Source: a virus. From it: a stretch of DNA of 45,654 nt. Positions 18,992 to 41,100 of this stretch are shown here, piece by piece. The stretch lies in the IMG/VR virus record IMGVR_UViG_3300009466_000006, positions 1 through 45,654 of that record; one strand, given 5' to 3'. The number at the start of each line of letters is the position of its first letter. Position 1 is the stretch's first letter. The position numbers and the translations under genes were made by a program. The notes below the pieces were generated by a model. That model was not told where the DNA came from. It searched no databases and saw nothing but the letters and a program-made list of their open reading frames with translations.

Positions 18992-19021
18992 AAAATCTCC
19001 TCAAATTGGTTTGAAATGGAG

Positions 19022-19065
19022 GGCAGGACGCAGATCAGGGAAGGGGGGTCTGTCTGCGTCCTGCC
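19022..19065. other. 13-bp perfect inverted repeat between polymerase and ssDNA-binding genes
   Basis: GGCAGGACGCAGA at 19022-19034 pairs exactly with TCTGCGTCCTGCC at 19053-19065 around an 18-base purine-rich loop. No U-tract follows in the transcription direction, so it looks more like an mRNA processing, attenuation or stability hairpin than an intrinsic terminator. Confidence 0.65.
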
Positions 19066-19088
19066 GTCCTAGCAGGCGCTTGCGCTGT

Positions 19089-22380: not shown

Positions 22381-22598
22381 TGAAACTCCTCGTCAATTTC
22401 GGTGGCTCCGCGCAGCAACGAACCGCATGAGGCGCAGACCATTTCGGTGAAGTAGCCAGCAATGGTCTTGTCGTCTGCAAACCAGATAAGTGCGTGAAAA
22501 ACTTGGTTGCCGCACACACAGACGGTGGTTGGACCCATGAACAGCAGGTCGCTTCCGTCAGGCTCTACGTAAAAGATTTCGTAGACGGGTTGGCTCAT
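22377..22598 (-). CDS. Small zinc-binding protein, 73 aa
   Basis: CVCGN and CASCGS lie about 28 residues apart and make a zinc-ribbon-like four-cysteine site; the rest is aromatic and hydrophobic. ATGA overlaps on both sides join it to the primase and the helicase genes, so it may be an accessory of either. Function unknown. Confidence 0.6.
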   Translation of the reverse strand: MSQPVYEIFYVEPDGSDLLFMGPTTVCVCGNQVFHALIWFADDKTIAGYFTEMVCASCGSLLRGATEIDEEFQ

Positions 22599-23533
22599 GC
22601 GACTCCACCGAGAGCGGCTTTTCCAAATGCGCGGGACTTTGCTGTTTCCAGACCGGCAAGTATTTCTTCTGCGGTCATGTCTCCGGGATCTTTGGCGTCA
22701 ACGTCTGTGTAGTTGAAAAAGCGAACGCTACGCAAAACTCCTTGGGTGTTCTTAAGCAACTCAATACTGGATTTGCGGCCTGCCTCATCCTTGAATGGAT
22801 TATCAAGCGCGAAGACGACCTCGTCTGCTGCGCTCATAAGTAGTAGTTGCAGTTTGGACACGATGGCTCCAAATGTCGCGACCGCTCCCGTCACACCGTC
22901 AGCGTGCAGGCGCACCGCATCGAGTGGCGACTCAACGACAACCATGCGTCCGCCTTGAAAGGCGTGGTAGCCAAACAGGGTTCCACTCTTCTTAACACCC
23001 AGCGGGTAGTTGCGGAACATGCGGTCCACTTCGGACTTCTCCTGCCACCCCAGCAGTGAGTCATCGTTGGGGTTTCTAATGGGCAGAATCCACGACTCAG
23101 ATACGAAGTTCCACTTAACGCCGTAAAGGTCACACGCTTCGGGTGTGAGGTGTCTGCGCCGCAGTGCCCATTTAGGTGGTGCGGAGTATCTATAGATCTG
23201 TGACTCCGAGATGGTCTGTCGGTGACTCACAATGGGTTGTGGCCCGGGTATGCGTGCAATGCTGTCGGTAATGTCGGGCTTGACGGTGAGGGTTTTAGCC
23301 TCATCAAAACTGACACCCTTGAGGTCGGAAATCAGGGTGATGATGGAGCCCCTGTACCCGCAGGAGAAGCAAAGGAATAAGCCCGTGTCAAGGTTTATTG
23401 ACCACGACGGGTGTGAGTCCATCTTTCCCGTACGCTGAAAGTGCATGGGGCATTCAGCGACGAACTCGTCACCCCGAGCGAACCCGGATATACCGAGCCC
23501 GCCAAGGGTAGACGAGACGTCGATGCTGGTCAC
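22595..23533 (-). CDS. DnaG-like primase
   Basis: A 312-residue primase. A CHC2-type zinc domain is at the N-terminus (Cys28, His31, Cys55, Cys58 with HPSWSINLDTGLFLCFSCG), followed by a TOPRIM core: VVVESPLDAVRL carries the Glu, FALDN the first Asp, and DVDAKDPGDM the second acid cluster. It synthesises RNA primers for lagging-strand synthesis. No helicase-binding C-terminal domain is apparent, so the protein is short compared with cellular DnaG. ATGA overlaps at both ends. Confidence 0.88.
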   Translation of the reverse strand: MTSIDVSSTLGGLGISGFARGDEFVAECPMHFQRTGKMDSHPSWSINLDTGLFLCFSCGYRGSIITLISDLKGVSFDEAKTLTVKPDITDSIARIPGPQPIVSHRQTISESQIYRYSAPPKWALRRRHLTPEACDLYGVKWNFVSESWILPIRNPNDDSLLGWQEKSEVDRMFRNYPLGVKKSGTLFGYHAFQGGRMVVVESPLDAVRLHADGVTGAVATFGAIVSKLQLLLMSAADEVVFALDNPFKDEAGRKSSIELLKNTQGVLRSVRFFNYTDVDAKDPGDMTAEEILAGLETAKSRAFGKAALGGVA

Positions 23534-23790: not shown

Positions 23791-23819
23791 TGTAGTGCTG
23801 AATGGTAGTAAATGCTACA
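23791..23819. promoter_or_regulatory. Recurrent dyad, site H
   Basis: On the minus strand TGTAGCA, 15 bases, CACTACA. The left arm is the exact half-site and overlaps the TAG stop of the DnaB gene. TACACT at the right arm could be the -10 of a promoter with TAGCAT as -35 at 17 bases. Confidence 0.5.
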
Positions 23820-25098
23820 CCTGTGGAACGCTTGGTGCAAAGCGGCTCGCCGTAATACATCCCGGACATTTGTTGGCGGAATCCTCGTCATGAAAACAGC
23901 CCGTGTCCCAGCGCCAGATCAGCACGGTGGAGTCGGGTCCGCAGTTACGCGAGGCCACAATCCGCAGTTCGCGGATCTCATCATCCTCGGGAACTTCTTG
24001 CAGACCAAGAATCACATCAGAGTCTTGGAAGAAACTGGACGAGTACCCGATGGAATCGGCAGAGACCTTGCCACCCTTCATCTTCCACAGAAGAGTCTGC
24101 GTGGATATGACGACCGGAATGTTGATCCTCTGCGCAAGTCTTTTCAGTGAGCGGGTGATGTTTGTGAGTGCCTGTGGAGTGTTTGATTCTCCACTCTGCT
24201 CGTCCTGCATCAGGTACACACCGTCAATAAACGCCACGTCAGGCTTGGTCTGGTCAATCTTTGCCGCCAAAGCGCTCACCGTTATGCCGTGCATGGCGTC
24301 ACTGAGCGTAAACTTATTGCTCATCAACTCCATGTCGGTCAGCATGTCTCGATAACTGTCCAACTCCGGGGAGGTAAGTGATCCCCGACGCATCCGGTCA
24401 TGGCTGACCTTGGACCGCATCGAATCATGGCGCACCTGCTGCTCAGTATTAGACATCTCAAAAGACTGAAACAAAACGTTATGGCCCGCCTCATGGATGT
24501 TGATAGCGGTCTGAAGCAGGATCTGAGACTTACCCGTCTTGGGAGGTGCGATAACGGTGACGAGTTGGCCACCCTGCAGACCTGCAGTGGCCTCATCGAT
24601 CTTCTCATAACCTGTTGGTAAGCCTAAAAGATTACCTGCCGAAGATGCCAGATCCTCGTACAGGCTGAGCCGTGAAAGCGGATCACGCTCCAGTTGCATA
24701 TCGGTGACACCCGGAACTCCTTCACGATGAATGTCTGTGACACCACGCTCAATAAGTACGAGAGCGGCCTCGTGATCATTGGTCGATGAAAGAACCTCAG
24801 CAGCACCTTGGATCGTGTCCTCGACCTTGACATAGCGCCTGTAGGCAATGAACTGGTCAAGAAGGTAGTCCAAAGAGTCCTCAACCTTGAGGATGGCAAA
24901 GTTGGGAAACTCAGCCTTAACACTCGTGGCGGTGGCGACCTCACCGTACCTGCCCCAGTGCTCAACCAGCCACTTAAAAACCTGACGAACATCAGGGTTA
25001 ACAAACCAGTCAGGCTGAACACCAGTAGAAAGCAGTGGTGTGATGTTGCGGTCCCGAATGGCGCGAGATATTAAGCGAACCTCATTATCTGCCGCCAT
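23815..25098 (-). CDS. dnaB: DnaB-like replicative helicase
   Basis: A 427-residue RecA-fold hexameric helicase. An N-terminal helical domain is followed by LPTGYEKIDEATAGLQGGQLVTVIAPP, with Walker A APPKTGKS at 184-191, Walker B VAFIDGVYLM, and NIPVVISTQ as a later motif. It unwinds the fork for the family A polymerase and works with the DnaG-like primase. The end has two Cys close together (CPGC region). It starts one base before the stop of the HAD-like neighbour. Confidence 0.9.
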   Translation of the reverse strand: MAADNEVRLISRAIRDRNITPLLSTGVQPDWFVNPDVRQVFKWLVEHWGRYGEVATATSVKAEFPNFAILKVEDSLDYLLDQFIAYRRYVKVEDTIQGAAEVLSSTNDHEAALVLIERGVTDIHREGVPGVTDMQLERDPLSRLSLYEDLASSAGNLLGLPTGYEKIDEATAGLQGGQLVTVIAPPKTGKSQILLQTAINIHEAGHNVLFQSFEMSNTEQQVRHDSMRSKVSHDRMRRGSLTSPELDSYRDMLTDMELMSNKFTLSDAMHGITVSALAAKIDQTKPDVAFIDGVYLMQDEQSGESNTPQALTNITRSLKRLAQRINIPVVISTQTLLWKMKGGKVSADSIGYSSSFFQDSDVILGLQEVPEDDEIRELRIVASRNCGPDSTVLIWRWDTGCFHDEDSANKCPGCITASRFAPSVPQV

Positions 25099-25517
25099 CA
25101 GAGTGAACGATCCAGATGACCCAAGCCGATCCCACGACCGCCATACCGTGCCTGATTCTCAGGGGTGTCCACCACGCCGATAACTTCTGGCCGATACGGC
25201 AGATCACTCAAAAGAGAGAACAGATCAGGATAGGTCGTGGAATAGTTCACAGGATTTGTCCCCAAGTTGTCGAGTTGTGTAAGCCGTTTATCTGCCTCGT
25301 CCTGACCCACACCAAAATTAATCAGTTCAATACGGATCGCAGAACGCTCAGTGTATCTCCAGATACGATTCAATGCTACACGGTCAAACCTGCGAATACT
25401 AGTAGTTCCCACCCTCACCCCTAACACCTTGCGCGGCTCATCTTGAGCCACGGTAATCGATTCATACGTCACAAGAATCCTTGGAGGAATCTCGTTAGAA
25501 ATGTCACCCCTAATCAA
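25098..25517 (-). CDS. Hypothetical protein, HAD-like fold possible
   Basis: A 139-residue protein encoded between the helicase and the SWIM protein. ILVTYESI at the start, IELINFG in the middle and [12 protein letters not shown] near the end follow the spacing of HAD motifs I, II and IV, but the nucleophile DxD is absent. It may be a degenerate HAD protein like the one at 2162-2650. The fold is a guess and the role unknown. Confidence 0.45.
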
Positions 25518-25808
25518 CTAAAGAACCTCAATCCTCCCGTAACGCACCACGAAGTCCCGAAACTTCTCGTTGGTTGTCATCACACCAGAGAGGTCATCAC
25601 CCTGAGCGTTCTCATGCACCATCAACGGATAGTGACCGTTATTGCTCTCCAGACGCGCTATAACAAACTTGGTATGGCGACAGATGGATCGACCCTTATA
25701 CGTCGGGCAATTACAGCGAGCCGATGCATCATCAAGGTTCATCTCAACCTCAAAAATAGCGGGCTGCTTGGGTGACAAAAACAACTGAACAGTGCGCCAA
25801 TCGCTCAC
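25518..25808 (-). CDS. SWIM-type zinc-finger protein
   Basis: A 96-residue protein with ARCNCPTYKGRSICRHTKFV: the CxC...CxH ligand pattern of SWIM domains, which bind zinc and are found next to SNF2 helicases and MULE transposases. The start is GTG at 25808 with AGGAGG six bases upstream, rather than the ATG at 25823. It lies beside the helicase loader; a role in DNA binding at the fork or in pairing with the SNF2 protein is plausible. Confidence 0.7.
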   Translation of the reverse strand: MSDWRTVQLFLSPKQPAIFEVEMNLDDASARCNCPTYKGRSICRHTKFVIARLESNNGHYPLMVHENAQGDDLSGVMTTNEKFRDFVVRYGRIEVL

Positions 25809-25809
25809 G

Positions 25810-26394
25810 TTAGTCCTCCTCATGGGTTACCTCCATGATGACGGCTATAAAAAAAATATCACTCGATAAGTTACCCAAAAAAGAATCCTTCGGCCGCGAC
25901 TTAGACGTGACAATCGTGGGAAGGCCCTGATCAAAACGACGACCAATGAGAGCATCCAACGTCGAATCCACCCAGCCCGACTCCGTCCGGTGCTCGTCCC
26001 CGTAGCCCGACAAGATCAACAGGTCGTCGTCAAGGCGCGTGCGAAACTCACGCTCGCCCTCGGGACGCTCCGAGGCCAAGTAGTCGCTGCTCCGCAGGTA
26101 GAGCAGGGAACCAATAGACTCCCTGATCAACAAGTCCTGAGCCACCGCAGTGGCGACCGCCACGCCATGGCGTCCCACCAGCCAGAGACCTTTCCCACAA
26201 AACTCAAAGTTTCCCACCGCCCGAACAACGTCCCCAGCGGTCACATGCTCGGACCACTTCTCCACCAGACCCTGCGGTCGGGCACCTTCAAGTAGGGGTG
26301 CCACATGCGGGGAATCTGGCAGTAGTCCAAGGTATCGGGGGCCAATCTTGGATAATCGTAAGCGCGAGGTTGTTAGGCCCTTGTACTCCCTCAC
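25810..26394 (-). CDS. DnaC-like helicase loader with lost ATPase motifs
   Basis: A 194-residue protein with DnaC/IstB AAA+ architecture: a basic N-terminus, KGLWLVGRHGVAVATA where a Walker A should be, DDDLLILSGYGDEH for Walker B, GWVDSTLDALIGRRF and PTIVTSKSRP for the sensor 1 region. The Walker A Lys-Thr/Ser and the Walker B Asp pair are absent. Fold and place between the initiator and DnaB argue for a loader, but it cannot bind or hydrolyse ATP in the usual way. GTG start overlaps the initiator stop (GTGA). Confidence 0.65.
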   Translation of the reverse strand: MREYKGLTTSRLRLSKIGPRYLGLLPDSPHVAPLLEGARPQGLVEKWSEHVTAGDVVRAVGNFEFCGKGLWLVGRHGVAVATAVAQDLLIRESIGSLLYLRSSDYLASERPEGEREFRTRLDDDLLILSGYGDEHRTESGWVDSTLDALIGRRFDQGLPTIVTSKSRPKDSFLGNLSSDIFFIAVIMEVTHEED

Positions 26395-27263
26395 AGGGCC
26401 TCCATCTGGGCGTCCAGACTGGAGACCCAGTCGTCGGAAATCTCCTCGCGGGTGATCTCGCGGTAGTTCTGCTGCAAGAAATGCAGGAATCGTTTGTAGG
26501 CTGGCGGGGTCTCGGTCAGCGAGGTGACCGTCTCGATATCTTCAAAAAATCGATCCACGGCGGTTGCCATGTCTGTGACCGAGAGGCCGTGATCTTTGGA
26601 CCACTTCTGGAGCACCACGGTCATGGTCGATCCGTCGGTTCCTCCGCCCAAGATGTCTGGGCGTGCGGTGGCCATCCTGTGGCGGAACTCCTTGACCACA
26701 TGGGCGACCGACCACTGGTCTCGGGGCGTCAGTCGGTGGTATTTCAGGGCCGCACGGCGTTCGGCACGGGTCATCCGTTCACGGTGTGAACGCTTTTCGG
26801 TACGGCCAACACCTGCGAGGTTCTCTCCGTCGTCGGTTTCGTAGTAAATCGGCACTATTCGTGTTGTCCCTTTCTCGGGGGTACCCCGGGAGGTAGGAGA
26901 ACCGTTAGGTTCTCCTAGCGACCCACTGTCACTTGTCGACATGTCGTCCTTGTATACGTACCCTTTTTGTCTCACTGGTGAGACTTTCTGTCTCATATCT
27001 GGGACTTCTTGTCTCACCTGTGGGACTCCTTGGTGTTCCTGCGGTACGGCGTAAACGCCGTTTATGGAGCGAATTAGGACGCCTTTGTCGACGATTCCTT
27101 GGATAAATCGGTGCGCGGTTGCCCGACTAACGGACATTGATGCGGCAACGTCTTCGATTCTGACGCGGATTACCCCCTCGCGTTCGTGCGTGAAAATAAT
27201 GCATGCGGCCATGAACTCTTGGGGCGTGAGCCCCTTGTTGAGTAATTCATTCGCCGATGTCAT
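26391..27263 (-). CDS. Helix-turn-helix replication initiator-like protein
   Basis: A 290-residue protein. Residues 32-65 form a winged helix (VRIEDVAASMSVSRATAHRF); a low-complexity linker with Pro-Val-Arg-Gln repeats covers residues 73-100; the C-terminal part has ATARPDILGGG and a helical domain resembling phage initiator C-termini that contact helicase. The linker is encoded by the four iterons. Followed directly by the loader and DnaB, it has the same order and layout as lambda O-P. It would bind the origin and recruit the helicase. Confidence 0.6.
   Translation of the reverse strand: MTSANELLNKGLTPQEFMAACIIFTHEREGVIRVRIEDVAASMSVSRATAHRFIQGIVDKGVLIRSINGVYAVPQEHQGVPQVRQEVPDMRQKVSPVRQKGYVYKDDMSTSDSGSLGEPNGSPTSRGTPEKGTTRIVPIYYETDDGENLAGVGRTEKRSHRERMTRAERRAALKYHRLTPRDQWSVAHVVKEFRHRMATARPDILGGGTDGSTMTVVLQKWSKDHGLSVTDMATAVDRFFEDIETVTSLTETPPAYKRFLHFLQQNYREITREEISDDWVSSLDAQMEAL
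26964..27047. repeat. Four 21-bp iterons within the initiator gene; candidate origin of replication
   Basis: Four 16-bp imperfect palindromes repeat every 21 bp, at 26969-26984, 26990-27005, 27011-27026 and 27032-27047, each followed on the minus strand by a 5-base purine spacer (AAAAA, AGAAA, AAGAA, AAGGA). The best unit, GTCTCACTGGTGAGAC, is a perfect 7-bp dyad; the last is degenerate. Placement inside a presumed initiator gene, next to loader and helicase, mirrors lambda ori in gene O. No strongly AT-rich tract adjoins it. Confidence 0.65.
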
Positions 27264-28061: not shown

Positions 28062-30614
28062 CTACTCTTCGTAGATTCCTCTCGGGATAAGTGACTGAAC
28101 TTGTGGATCAGGGGAGTCCCAAAGCAGCACCCGAGCCCGAACTCCCACGGGCAGGTAATAGGGGAGGGTCTGCTTGAGCCGCCCCAACTTGATGGGTGCC
28201 TTGTTGTACAGAAGTGAATACGAGCCCGGGGTGCCATCTGACCAGCGACCATCTTGGTTATCAATATCGGACAGGTCACCTGAGAAGAAAGTTTGTATCC
28301 TGTCAGCCCGCTCCATCAGCACGTTGTCGATGTAGACCGTACCTGTTCCCTCAAATCGCAGTACCGCATACGTGGCACTTGAAGGGGATGTTAGCGCCGC
28401 TTCGATGCGAGACCACTCGGTCGATAAGTCATCAAACACGTATTCGGACACGGACACAACGGCGTCAGAGTAGTCGTACCACGTCACGACCATGGAGCAA
28501 CTTCCCAACTCAGACAGCGCGTATGCCGAAAGGCTGTACGAGTAGTTTCCTACAACGGGGATGTCGTTGCTTTTAAATGCCCACGAAGTGCCCGTCGCTT
28601 TACCGGATTTGCTACCACTTACAGACTGTTCAGTTGAGGTGGCTAGAGATCCACTTTCGACAGTCCACGTCGTACCCGCTAACTCAAACGAGGGATCAAA
28701 GATCAGGTTAAGGCGATCCGGCTGACATACCACTGTCACCGTTGCAGGATCGCGGTACACGTACTCCACTTCGTAAGTACTGTAAACGAACGCGCCGTAA
28801 ATTCCGTCCTCGCCGTACTTTGTGTTTGTTCTTCCCGTGAAAAAGTCTCCAAGACGGCTTGACTTCTCGACAAGAAATCCATCGACGTAGAAAGAGTCAG
28901 CGCTGGAAAAAGTTGTTGGTGTGTCAACGGAAAATTCAAGACGTGTCGAGTTAGTGGGTGCCGTTACTGTGTAAGAAAGGCGAGTCCACTCGTTAGCGTT
29001 CAGAGACGCCGAGTCAGCAGTACTTGTCGACAGCAGGGTAGCACCGTTGTACCACTTGAACGAAACAGTGGCCGTGGATGACTTGGTAGGCCGCGCATAC
29101 ACAGACCCCGTGAAGGTCTCGCCCTCAGATGCAGCAATGGTCCCCGTGTTAGTTATTCCAAGACTGCGAGGTGTCCCATCAGATGACGCGGCTCTAAAAG
29201 ATGTACTTCCATAAAGGCTCACTGCACTGGACGACTCAAGAACCCTGCTTGCACTTGTCACAAGTTTGACAGAATCAATCTCAGGCTCCACAGGAGGGTA
29301 ATTGAAAAGGTTTGCTCTAACTCGTACGGCCTCATTTGTGAAAGCCAACATATCGAGGTAGGCAACATCTCCAGTAGAGCCAGAAACGTTAATACGAAGC
29401 GCTGCGAATGCTGCGTTGTCTGGTGCGATCACAGGACCACCTGCAGATTCCCAACTAGTGGTCGTCAGCACACCCGACGGAGTAGAGACCGAGATCAGAT
29501 CGCCCCGCACATCAAGCCAGTGAACAGACGGCTCGATAACGACATCGTCACCGTCAGACTTACACGGAACATCGAAGTAGTAAGACTCCCCAGCAGTTAC
29601 CGGAATTGACAATAGTCTGTTGTAGTCGGCAGGAAGTTCAAGAACTGCAGAAGAATTTACAAGCGTGACCTTACCCACACCTAGCCGACTAAACGGGTAC
29701 TCGTCTGTTTCTGTCGCTATCTCAGGACCTTGCATCCCGAGTTCCACTATCGGCTCAACCTCTAAAGAAACATCGCTGGGGTTGAAAGACCAGTTACCTG
29801 TCGAACTCTCAAATGAAGCATCATCAAGAGATAGAAAAAGATTTGTTGAATCCGTTACCACGGTCTGCCATCCTGTCAGGGCCTCTACGAACGTAGTGAT
29901 GCCCCTGAGAGTTCCCTTATTTCTGTAGATGTACCCAGCCTCCCTGTAAAGACGAGCATTTGCAGCAACTCCGAGAATGTACTCGGAAGGCATGCCCACT
30001 CCCGTCACAAAAATCTCACTCAGGCGGCGCGTGACGTGTAGGTTTCTGTTCTCAGGAAGAATGAAATCCACCATGGAGGACAACTCGTCAAATGTGAGTC
30101 CAAAGGAATATAAAAACTTTTCAAGGTCTGACTCTTCGTCTTGAGTTGGAGAGAAAGGATTCCCGTCTTCCGACGAGTACATAGTTGGTAAGAAACTTAT
30201 AAGTTTCTTTGTAGACTGCTTATTTGTCGGGATAACGACAGAGGTTGCCGCGTCTTTGAACCACGCGCCGTTGTCATCAAAACCAAACAACGTGTAGTAG
30301 GCAGTCCCCGCCTGTTGCGAGTAGGGCGCACTGAGTTCAGGCACCACCATTACTGCTGTCGCGTCTAATACAGTTGTCGTGGAGGCCGTGACAGTTCCTG
30401 ACGAAACGGTAAAGCCGTCGGAAGGGTCTTGCGCCGCTCCCGTGTTTGACCGCACTAACACGTACTGGCTGCCCACTCGGGTAGGGGCCTCGATGCTAAT
30501 TTCAACGGTTCCGTAATCAATAGCCTGAGCAAACAGGTAAGACTGAGTGATGACGGGGCCAAAATTGCCGTAGACGCTCCCGCCGTACTTGAATGTCTTG
30601 AAAGTTCCTGCCAT
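28062..30614 (-). CDS. Tail protein I-like protein with carbohydrate-binding-like domains
   Basis: An 850-residue protein. Residues 130-245 carry LISFLPTMYSSEDGN, LEKFLYSFGLTFDELSSMVDFI and GIPS-type text resembling phage tail protein I, which links baseplate to fibre. Three following beta-rich segments end in WYDY/VYIDNVLMERAD or FYVDGFLVEKSS text, typical of carbohydrate-binding jelly-roll modules. It probably sits at the baseplate edge and contacts host surface sugars. Start ATG follows GGAGAACTG. It could be the receptor-binding protein. Confidence 0.7.
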   Translation of the reverse strand: MAGTFKTFKYGGSVYGNFGPVITQSYLFAQAIDYGTVEISIEAPTRVGSQYVLVRSNTGAAQDPSDGFTVSSGTVTASTTTVLDATAVMVVPELSAPYSQQAGTAYYTLFGFDDNGAWFKDAATSVVIPTNKQSTKKLISFLPTMYSSEDGNPFSPTQDEESDLEKFLYSFGLTFDELSSMVDFILPENRNLHVTRRLSEIFVTGVGMPSEYILGVAANARLYREAGYIYRNKGTLRGITTFVEALTGWQTVVTDSTNLFLSLDDASFESSTGNWSFNPSDVSLEVEPIVELGMQGPEIATETDEYPFSRLGVGKVTLVNSSAVLELPADYNRLLSIPVTAGESYYFDVPCKSDGDDVVIEPSVHWLDVRGDLISVSTPSGVLTTTSWESAGGPVIAPDNAAFAALRINVSGSTGDVAYLDMLAFTNEAVRVRANLFNYPPVEPEIDSVKLVTSASRVLESSSAVSLYGSTSFRAASSDGTPRSLGITNTGTIAASEGETFTGSVYARPTKSSTATVSFKWYNGATLLSTSTADSASLNANEWTRLSYTVTAPTNSTRLEFSVDTPTTFSSADSFYVDGFLVEKSSRLGDFFTGRTNTKYGEDGIYGAFVYSTYEVEYVYRDPATVTVVCQPDRLNLIFDPSFELAGTTWTVESGSLATSTEQSVSGSKSGKATGTSWAFKSNDIPVVGNYSYSLSAYALSELGSCSMVVTWYDYSDAVVSVSEYVFDDLSTEWSRIEAALTSPSSATYAVLRFEGTGTVYIDNVLMERADRIQTFFSGDLSDIDNQDGRWSDGTPGSYSLLYNKAPIKLGRLKQTLPYYLPVGVRARVLLWDSPDPQVQSLIPRGIYEE

Positions 30615-38120: not shown

Positions 38121-41100
38121 GACCTACCTACTCTTGAGACTCTCTCTTTACTCTCTAAAAGTGCAATGACCTTGTTAGCAAAGCGCTCTGCCTCATCATC
38201 AGAGGCACGCTCTATGTTCAAGTTCACCGTCACGGGCTGCTTTGATCCCCCACCGTTCAAGGCTTCCCGGAGCGCGTCACGAAAATCCTGAGCAACAGCC
38301 GCAGGGAAAATCATCTCGCCTTGATGCACGTTGACAGCACCGTCTCGGGATACTGTCTCCATTCCGTGTGAAGCACTTTGCGCTCGTGTCTCGTACTCCT
38401 TGTAGTAGGTAGCCGCTTTCCCGTACTGGGGGCTTACCCATGATGCCCAGTTTTTGCCCTTTTGCGACATATACGCCGCAGCACGGGCATTGATCATCGG
38501 GTCAAAGAGGTCTTCTTTTGCTTGATACCCGGGAACGTACTGTTGAAACTTCCTGCTGCGTTCCGCTTCGAGGTTGCCCAGCATGTTGATTTGAAATATG
38601 CCATATGAATCATCGGGCGGAACTTTATTGTGCGATGTCGGGTTTCCACCGGATTCCCGCATAGCAATAGCCCACGCCTCCCGATGTCGTTCTCCGACAA
38701 AGCCTGCAGCGGTAAGCCAACTGCTGAGGCTTCCTGATGGTTTCTTACCTGAGTAAGGAGCGCCCCCATTGCCGTCAGTGGATGGGCCTCCGGGGGTATC
38801 TGCCGCTCTAGTGTCGTTGACTTTTGGAGATCCCGCTCCAAGACCTTCAAACACAGATACAAGATTGGTTGTGAGCACACTTGCATTTGTGGCAAGACTT
38901 CCCGTATTGATACTTGAGGTTGTGAACGAGCCCATGCTCGGGGTCGATGATCCAAATCCAGACAGACTGGTTGAGGACACTGTTGAGAACTGATTGGCGT
39001 ACTGAACCTTGGCTCCGATACCAGAAGACGGAAGTATTGCCGAACTCTTTTCAGGCGCTGCCAGCAAGTTCTGCACAGGCTTGTCTGAAGAGGTTGAGCC
39101 CCCAATATCAACGCCACTGGGTGACTCTGTAATACCCGAAATTCGTCGAGCGCCTACGTATCGGCTTGAGTACCAACTGCTAATAGGGCCTCTGACGGTT
39201 CCATCGTCAGGATTTGCCGCGTGGACGTGCTCATTGTTTCCAGCGTAAATTGAGACGTGACCTGTCTTTTTTTCGTCATGAGTTTTCCACAGCAGTAGGT
39301 CCCCGGGCTGCCAGTCGTCTCTGTCAACTGGTGTTCCTATATTTAAGTAGGAGTCTGAGTAACCGGGGACAGACTTGCCAAACTGCTTGTACACGTATTG
39401 CGTAAATGTTGAGCAGTCCCAACCGTTTTCAGGGTTAGGAGGTCCTTTTCTGTTTTCAGGTTTTACGTACGGGGTGCCGACAAATTGACTGGCAAACGCG
39501 ACAATTTGCTCCCCCTGCAGTCCACCTTTGCTGAACGATTTTGAAGGGCTGGCAAAACCAGAACCAAAGTCGTGACCCATGGAGTTTATTTTGTTTAGCG
39601 TATCAACGCCGACTGTCTGTACGGCTCTGGCATTTACGACGTACTCACCAGCGCTGACGTTGGCGCTGATGTTGTCTTGTGTAGATCCGCCGTTGCCTTT
39701 GATCGGTCCCCCGTCAGCAAACCCGGGAATGAGAAAACCGACGCCGCCGCCTATGATTCCAGATAAAATAGGGCCTAGAGTGTTGCCACCCGTCGCGGTC
39801 TGCGTGACTCCTTTGAGCGCCAGACCGAAGTCACTAACAACTCCGGTGACGTCGATGAACTGTGATACCAGCGAGGAGGTCACCTGTTCTGCGTTGGTAC
39901 CTGCAACGAACCCACTGAGAAGTCCCTCGCTGGAGTCCATGACCATGGTTCCGTAGTTTGTGTTGATGTCACCCGTTGCTGCCATGGGTGAAGAATTTTC
40001 GTTAAGGCCGTACTTCTTGGCCAACTCTGTAGCGCTATTTTTTCCTTCTTTGAGTCCTAGTCGAATTCCTTTGCGGCCACCTTCTTTGACTTTTAACCTA
40101 AGAAATTGGATTGCCTGCGCGTAGAGTGCGGGCTGCTGTCCGTACAGTTCATTAAGGTCCGCCCCTACGAAACCCATGGCTATGTCTCGGTCTAGTTGCG
40201 CCTCTGTGACGTTGTTGTCGGGGTACCAACGGCTCCACAACTGGTCCATAACCGCGCCGACATCTTTGAGGTTACCTTTTGAGTCGACGGTAGAGATACC
40301 GATTCCTAGTAACTTGTCCGATATTCCTGTAGAGCCTTGGTAAAGGGCCATTGATCCCTGAACGGAAGCGACGTTGTTCATCCCTGTCATCTGGTACATA
40401 AATCCAGCAGTCGTGAGCATTTCATCTTGGGTCTTACCCATGTTCATGGTGAAACTGCTGGCCGTCATGGCCGCAGACGCTGCTACAGGATCAAATGTTC
40501 CAGAAGATCCACTGTTTATCCCTTGAAGAATTCTCTGGTTGGTTGCTTTGTTTTGGTAGGGACCCGCTGTCGAGTACGCCGTCTGGAACAGCATGGACTG
40601 GTTAGTGACGGCGTCCTGCGTACTTGGAGTTCCGTTCCATGCAGCGGCTCCGACGCCAGCCGCAATCTTGAGGCCGCCAAACGAATTTCCCCCGTGGGCT
40701 GGTCCATTACTTGATGGGACAAGTCCGCCGCCTCGACCGCCCCCGTAGTTGCCCCCGCCTGTTGTGGCGACTGTGTTCCCACCCCCACCTGAACGTACAA
40801 CGTCGGTGCTCTGGCCACCAAAAGTAGCCACTGCTTTTCCGAACCGAGTTCCGTTGCCTCCGCCGCCACCTTGTACGGCAACCTCGGTGCTTTGGCTTCC
40901 GAATAAGGCGACTGCTTTTCCAAACCTGTTAACCGCGTCAGACGTAGTGGACTTAACTTCTGAACCAGACTTGGCCGAGGTTATGGTCTGCGCGACGGAA
41001 CCGATGATTCCAAGCGAGGTTGGCATGACGGAACCGACAGAGCCTTGCGGCGCACTTGACCGGGTACCGCCGCCAATCTTAGACACATCACTCTTAGCAG

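Follow-up and report, generated by a model that had tools for sequence, protein, structure and literature searches.

A probable lambda-type replication origin within the initiator gene of a phage family seen in metagenomes

Here we present evidence that a phage known from metagenomic sequence carries a replication origin of the lambda type inside its own initiator gene, a reading to which we assign a probability of about 85%. The window, as the whole stretch of 45,654 nucleotides under analysis is called here, had been annotated in an earlier note as holding a lambda-O-like origin, and this reading is supported by near-frozen synonymous sites, by palindromes kept in relatives, by gene order and by PHROG matches to initiation proteins. 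The origin feature is made up of iterons together with a hairpin, so that the iterons are only half of it; linking hairpin 1 (Table 1) to the origin is the main addition to the first reading.

Table 1. Replication genes and origin elements of the window
Feature	Position	Strand	Remarks
DnaG-type primase	22595..23533	-	CHC2 zinc ribbon and Toprim
DnaB-like replicative helicase	23815..25098	-	
139-aa conserved protein	25098..25517	-	start motif GDISNE; directly before DnaB
Small protein, weak SWIM zinc-finger similarity	25518..25823	-	conserved between loader and helicase
DnaC-like helicase loader, 194 aa	25810..26394	-	Walker A and B motifs decayed
Initiator gene, 290 aa	26391..27263	-	winged helix, linker, C-terminal domain
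Hairpin 2, TCTCGGGGGTACCCCGGGA	26873..26891		GC-rich; weaker evidence than hairpin 1
Hairpin 1, TAGGAGAACC-GTTA-GGTTCTCCTA on + (non-coding) strand	26894..26917		10-bp perfect stem, cGNNAg-type loop
Iteron nearest hairpin, GTCTCACTGGTGAGAC (+ strand letters)	26969..26984		palindrome
Middle iteron, GTCTCATATCTGGGAC (+ strand letters)	26990..27005		palindrome
Iteron nearest HTH-coding end, GTCTCACCTGTGGGAC (+ strand letters)	27011..27026		palindrome

Results

The initiator and its gene neighbourhood

The AlphaFold model of the initiator consists of a confident winged helix (residues 1-76), a disordered linker (77-151) and a helical C-terminal domain (about 165-290). Because the linker is disordered, the DNA elements of the origin sit where the protein is least constrained. 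The N-terminal domain resembles regulators of the MarR/Crp/DeoR type. A fold search of the PDB returned generic winged-helix proteins alone and nothing below E = 0.001, which leaves the C-terminal domain unclassified. Within the family, 23 of 27 members match phrog_270 ('replication initiation protein') and 18 of 27 match phrog_678 ('replication initiation O-like'). The window protein itself gave no lambda O family match in Pfam or PHROGs; we take it to work like O and make no claim of O-family membership by sequence. Also, tblastn with the initiator gave no homologue in cultured phages, and the family is best read as one without cultured members, seen in metagenomes only.

The genes run in the order initiator, DnaC-like loader, SWIM-type zinc protein, 139-residue protein, DnaB, primase and SNF2-type helicase, with the loader gene immediately downstream of the initiator gene in a 4-base overlap. 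The first five, from initiator to DnaB, keep this order in relatives, some distant ones having a small extra gene in between, and the succession of initiator, DnaC-like loader and DnaB on which the lambda comparison had been built is therefore conserved. The SWIM-like zinc protein and the 139-residue protein have no PHROG match; both are kept throughout the family and may be part of the initiation machinery. No relatives of the window helicase were found in the genome_contigs search. Streptomyces phage BRock has a similar order of loader, DnaB, primase and helicase, and no initiator relative was recognised in it.

The loader has lost its Walker A motif, reading GRHGVAVATAV in the window versus GxPGLGKTTHA in distant relatives. 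This loss, together with an altered Walker B, extends to all four near lineages (the window, L005, L007 and L011), whereas distant relatives keep both motifs. An ATPase-dead loader between initiator and helicase would be a parallel to lambda P, a protein that does not belong to the AAA+ ATPases. Inverted repeats were also observed at two other places in the window. A perfect 20-bp palindrome, AAGAAACTTATAAGTTTCTT, occupies 30190-30209 within the gene at 28062-30614, which encodes 850 aa, and a 17-nt inverted repeat spans 19018-19069, its arms separated by 18 nt.

Palindromic iterons in the linker

The linker-coding stretch contains, in frame and with A-rich spacers, three 16-bp imperfect palindromes that read GTCCCACAGGTGAGAC, GTCCCAGATATGAGAC and GTCTCACCAGTGAGAC on the coding strand, start exactly 21 bp apart and encode about residues 81-99. 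Their consensus, GTCYCANNNNTGRGAC, is matched exactly at these three places in the window, and allowing 1 mismatch adds no further site. Four such iterons had been proposed in the earlier note. Three of them stand, at 16 bp, every 21 bp and inside the HTH gene, with 6, 6 and 7 of 8 palindrome pairs; the supposed fourth, at 27032-27047 (GGTGTTCCTGCGGTAC), has 2 of 8 pairs and matches the other copies at 6-9 of 16 bases, and the array is accordingly confined to 26969-27026. The suggestion that GTCTCAC in dyad site G is a second binding place was not borne out, this 7-mer occurring 5 times in the window against 9.25 expected. Extra iteron half-sites elsewhere in the window are at chance level.

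The array was compared with synonymous resamplings that kept the protein fixed and followed the phage's own codon usage. Arm pairs are complementary in 16 of 18 cases, against a mean of 7.2 in the resamplings, none of which (0/20,000) was as high, and identity at lag 21 is 39/66 against a mean of 31.0 (p = 0.0004).

The linkers of relatives hold palindromes of differing sequence, the opposite of a protein repeat retained over freely changing codons. Among the near relatives, L005 has TCCCA-N4-TGGGA, L007 has GGCTCACCAGTGAGCC with half-sites 21 bp apart and L011 has GCGCC-N4-GGCGC at a spacing of 21 bp; farther away, the palindromes are CCCACA-N4-TGTGGG every 33 bp (L053), ATGCCTC-N6-GAGGCAT 33 bp apart (L078) and GTAACA-N4-TGTTAC 30 bp apart (L052). 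The iteron sequence shifts and the palindromic form is kept, as would be expected if the sites and the HTH domain co-evolve.

Constraint at the DNA level and base composition

Synonymous rates were taken from one phage pair, the window and L002, whose initiator proteins are 81% identical. Synonymous differences per site amount to 0.61 in the HTH part, 0.073 in the iterons, 0.00 in both hairpins and 0.54 in the next stretch, the corresponding non-synonymous values being 0.14, 0.18, 0.17 and 0.10. Because synonymous change is so far below that of the flanking stretches, the DNA of iterons and hairpins must be constrained. Some residue changes in the iterons are concerted, GTC in the window being ATC in L002 in 3/3 copies. 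The idea that DNA function drives the repeat is thus upheld for this pair, whose iterons differ in amino acids but hardly at all at synonymous sites. Against L002, the initiator gene is near-identical over its last third (26391-26720; synonymous 0.16) and far diverged in its first part (0.61), a pattern suggestive of recombination with a junction inside the gene; the last third was left out of the synonymous baseline for this reason.

Most relatives have a distinct AT-rich tract beside the iterons, and none was seen in the window, where the lowest 40-bp GC content in the initiator gene is 0.40, a value reached by 8% of the window's 40-bp stretches. Across the family, 45 of 46 members have the GC minimum of the initiator gene within the linker, versus the 26% expected by length. 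GC skew is weak and carries no usable signal, with a minimum near 42 kb; the record may be a fragment, related contigs being 76-95 kb long.

A conserved hairpin 3' of the iterons

Between the iterons and the C-terminal domain lies hairpin 1, which reads TAGGAGAACC-TAAC-GGTTCTCCTA on the coding strand and occupies the same position across the family. Its counterparts are AAGAGAACC-TAAA-GGTTCTCTT in L002, GTTAGAAGAAAC-TAAC-GTTTCTTCTAAC in L005, ATAGAAGTACC-TAAC-GGTACTTCTAT in L007 and CTACTGATTC-TAAA-GAATCAGTAG in L011, while many distant relatives have a stem of 8-10 bp and a three-base loop, for example CAATAAATAC-TTC-GTATTTATTG. Small GC-rich hairpins like hairpin 2 come after hairpin 1 in many, not all, relatives.

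Two-sided changes were found at 8 of 10 pairs, in the distant set and in the near set alike (the latter including an L005 hairpin of 12 pairs), although these counts are not independent events because the sequences are related. On fixed structures, paired cells make up 96.7% in the distant set of 12 sequences and 98% in the near set of 5, against 32-49% in slid controls; the percentages are partly built in, since the hairpins were chosen for pairing. Neither the two-sided changes nor the abrupt end of pairing, which in the distant set collapses right past pair 10, is built in by that choice. There are no G.T pairs within the stem. As relatives change both sides of the stem together, it is the DNA itself, beyond the protein, that is preserved.

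Hairpins with arms of at least 9 bp and loops of 3-4 number 26 in 12.3 kb of linkers and 1 in 487 kb of surrounding DNA. Against synonymous shuffles the hairpin is significant in most members (p <= 0.025), and by this measure a clear hairpin is absent in some distant members, such as L016, L061 and L068. An exact scan of viral contigs for AAATACTTCGTATTT returned mostly matches without further stem; seven matches had stems of 9-10 bp, all of them in ORFs bearing the family's motif. In L025, L045, L049, L063, L102, L112, L113, L114, L137 and L142, a different hairpin lies ~55 bases before the C-terminal motif, and L114, L137 and L142 of this initiator subgroup have a cGAAg loop on the coding strand instead; this may be a shifted or strand-flipped version of hairpin 1. 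Other viral contigs (L160, L178, L201 and L226) share a recurring 11-bp hairpin, AATAAAAATAC-TTC-GTATTTTTATT, outside long ORFs in the frame checked.

The loop is conserved in a strand-specific manner. Among the 29 members whose arms reach 8 bp or more, the loop on the non-coding strand is c(GTA)g or c(GAA)g in 8 cases each, c(GTTA)g in another 3 and c(TTTA)g in a further 2, several of these members being close relatives. The cGNNAg class is a stable DNA tetraloop. GNA loops, for their part, can form extraordinarily stable DNA minihairpins, according to Yoshizawa et al. 1997 as cited in PMC6307347. Phage N4 has small DNA hairpins whose C-GNA-G loops lie on one strand and which are extruded when supercoiling is at its physiological level (PMC4496689); those are promoters of the virion RNA polymerase, a role for which the window hairpin gives no indication. 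That the loops of the non-coding strand are of the cGNAg/cGNNAg class suggests an element made of folded single-stranded DNA and, with the lack of G.T pairs, favours a DNA hairpin over an RNA one. We consider it reasonably probable that the hairpin acts as folded DNA.

Comparison with known origins

A palindrome 3' of the lambda iterons has long been known. Lambda has four annotated iterons in O, then a tract of 20% GC and then the hairpin GTCAGAGAATTC-TGGC-GAATCCTCTGAC (39162-39189), which has 11 of 12 pairs, a score reached by 0 of 100 synonymous shuffles, and the non-coding loop c(GCCA)g. Gene 15 of phi80 has a hairpin with 10 of 12 pairs, the non-coding loop c(GTCA)g and iterons about 21 bp apart, much as in the window. 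Both phages thus share with the window palindromic iterons in the linker of the initiator gene, a hairpin 3' of them and a loader gene immediately downstream. They differ in having four iterons rather than three and P as the loader rather than a DnaC-derived protein; the window has no marked AT-rich tract, and its phage carries its own DnaB and primase. In a 2020 origin study, the lambda origin was described as iterons plus an AT-rich tract, the most stable hairpins of gene O being placed among the iterons (PMC7466680).

Other phages give a mixed picture. The hairpins of Klebsiella phage 5 LV-2017 and of SEN22 score at p = 0.05 and 0.00, the SEN22 loop belonging to another class. Gene 18 of P22 and O of HK446, lambdoid phages with a DnaB-type gene downstream, likewise have the origin inside an O-like gene and a short hairpin at its end, with the loops TAAA in P22 and TAAC, the same as in the window, in HK446; their stems, however, are of 5 bp, were read by eye and are not significant in automatic scoring. 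BUCT566 has a 6-bp hairpin with a TTC loop, also read by eye. No comparable hairpin was found in KO-TP1, Bas106, TP901-1, Tuc2009 or Vibrio K73, although the rep genes of the lactococcal phages TP901-1 and Tuc2009 resemble the window gene as (DnaD-like) initiator genes with tandem repeats, and in Tuc2009 the annotation places the origin within this gene. Because the comparison set was hand-picked, the shared loop class is suggestive rather than established. The ssiA/ssiB sites of plasmid RSF1010 oriV also bear hairpins, and primase recognition, which is a property of the RSF1010 sites, would be a possibility for the window. The RSF1010 origin lies outside the initiator gene, and its primase is of another family than the window's.

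Discussion

The lambda-type origin can be put into a working model. The winged-helix N-terminal domain would bind the three palindromic iterons, probably as dimers, and the 21-bp spacing would put all three on one face of the helix. The resulting initiator-iteron complex would then open adjacent DNA. The 10-bp hairpin probably folds when the stretch is supercoiled or single-stranded, and it may serve to keep the bubble open or to show where the helicase is to be loaded or priming is to begin. To judge by gene order, the C-terminal domain would hand DnaB to the melted DNA via the DnaC-derived loader.

A sharper version of the same explanation makes the hairpin a primase or primosome site like ssiA/ssiB of RSF1010, which folds on one exposed strand and at which the phage primase starts. 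The operon does encode its own primase, the loop is conserved strand-specifically, and hairpin 1, at 23-24 nt, compares with the hairpin at nt 7-27 of ssiA, a 40-nt site recognised by the plasmid primase (PMC4434180). Stems vary freely, however, so that a primase would need to recognise the hairpin by its loop and shape; no conserved single-strand motif was found beside the hairpin, and the window primase is DnaG-type, not RepB'-type. Lambda, moreover, has a related hairpin yet employs the host primase for its replication. On balance we regard a primase site as rather unlikely.

That the elements serve expression of the operon is a good deal less probable. Iterons could be operators at which the HTH protein binds to repress or attenuate the operon that encodes it, with the hairpins acting in the transcript (attenuation, mRNA stability or translation), and both the resemblance of the N-terminal domain to MarR/Crp/DeoR-type regulators and the position of the elements, which are transcribed and lie upstream of loader and helicase, would fit. 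Yet the iterons are located ~240 bases into the gene rather than at its start, and occur nowhere else in the window, while a role in the transcript is opposed by the absence of G-U pairs, which RNA helices tolerate, among the covarying pairs, by a coding strand without a T run after the hairpins, and by an Rfam search that gave no match. We consider it almost negligible that the DNA repeats are a by-product of the repeated protein linker without any DNA function: the linker peptide is indeed repetitive (VPQVRQE VPDMRQK VSPVRQK), but synonymous resampling fails to reproduce the palindromes, synonymous sites barely move while residues do, and relatives with unrelated peptides keep palindromes.

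Starting from the lambda-type origin, we tentatively propose, at somewhat less than even odds, that origins of this type share a third element: a short hairpin with an exceptionally stable cGNAg/cGNNAg loop on the non-coding strand, kept by compensatory change in coding sequence across phages whose initiators are not recognisably homologous. It would fold as single-stranded DNA at initiation and have a strand-specific job in helicase loading or priming.

Conclusions

These findings give a replication-origin address to a phage family known from metagenomes only. They also draw attention to a lambda element that PMC7466680 does not list among the key ones, the hairpin 3' of the iterons, as being under selection for structure. 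Since iterons and hairpin change sequence and keep their form, what matters in the origin can be read from the relatives, and the family constitutes a natural mutagenesis experiment for the lambda origin.
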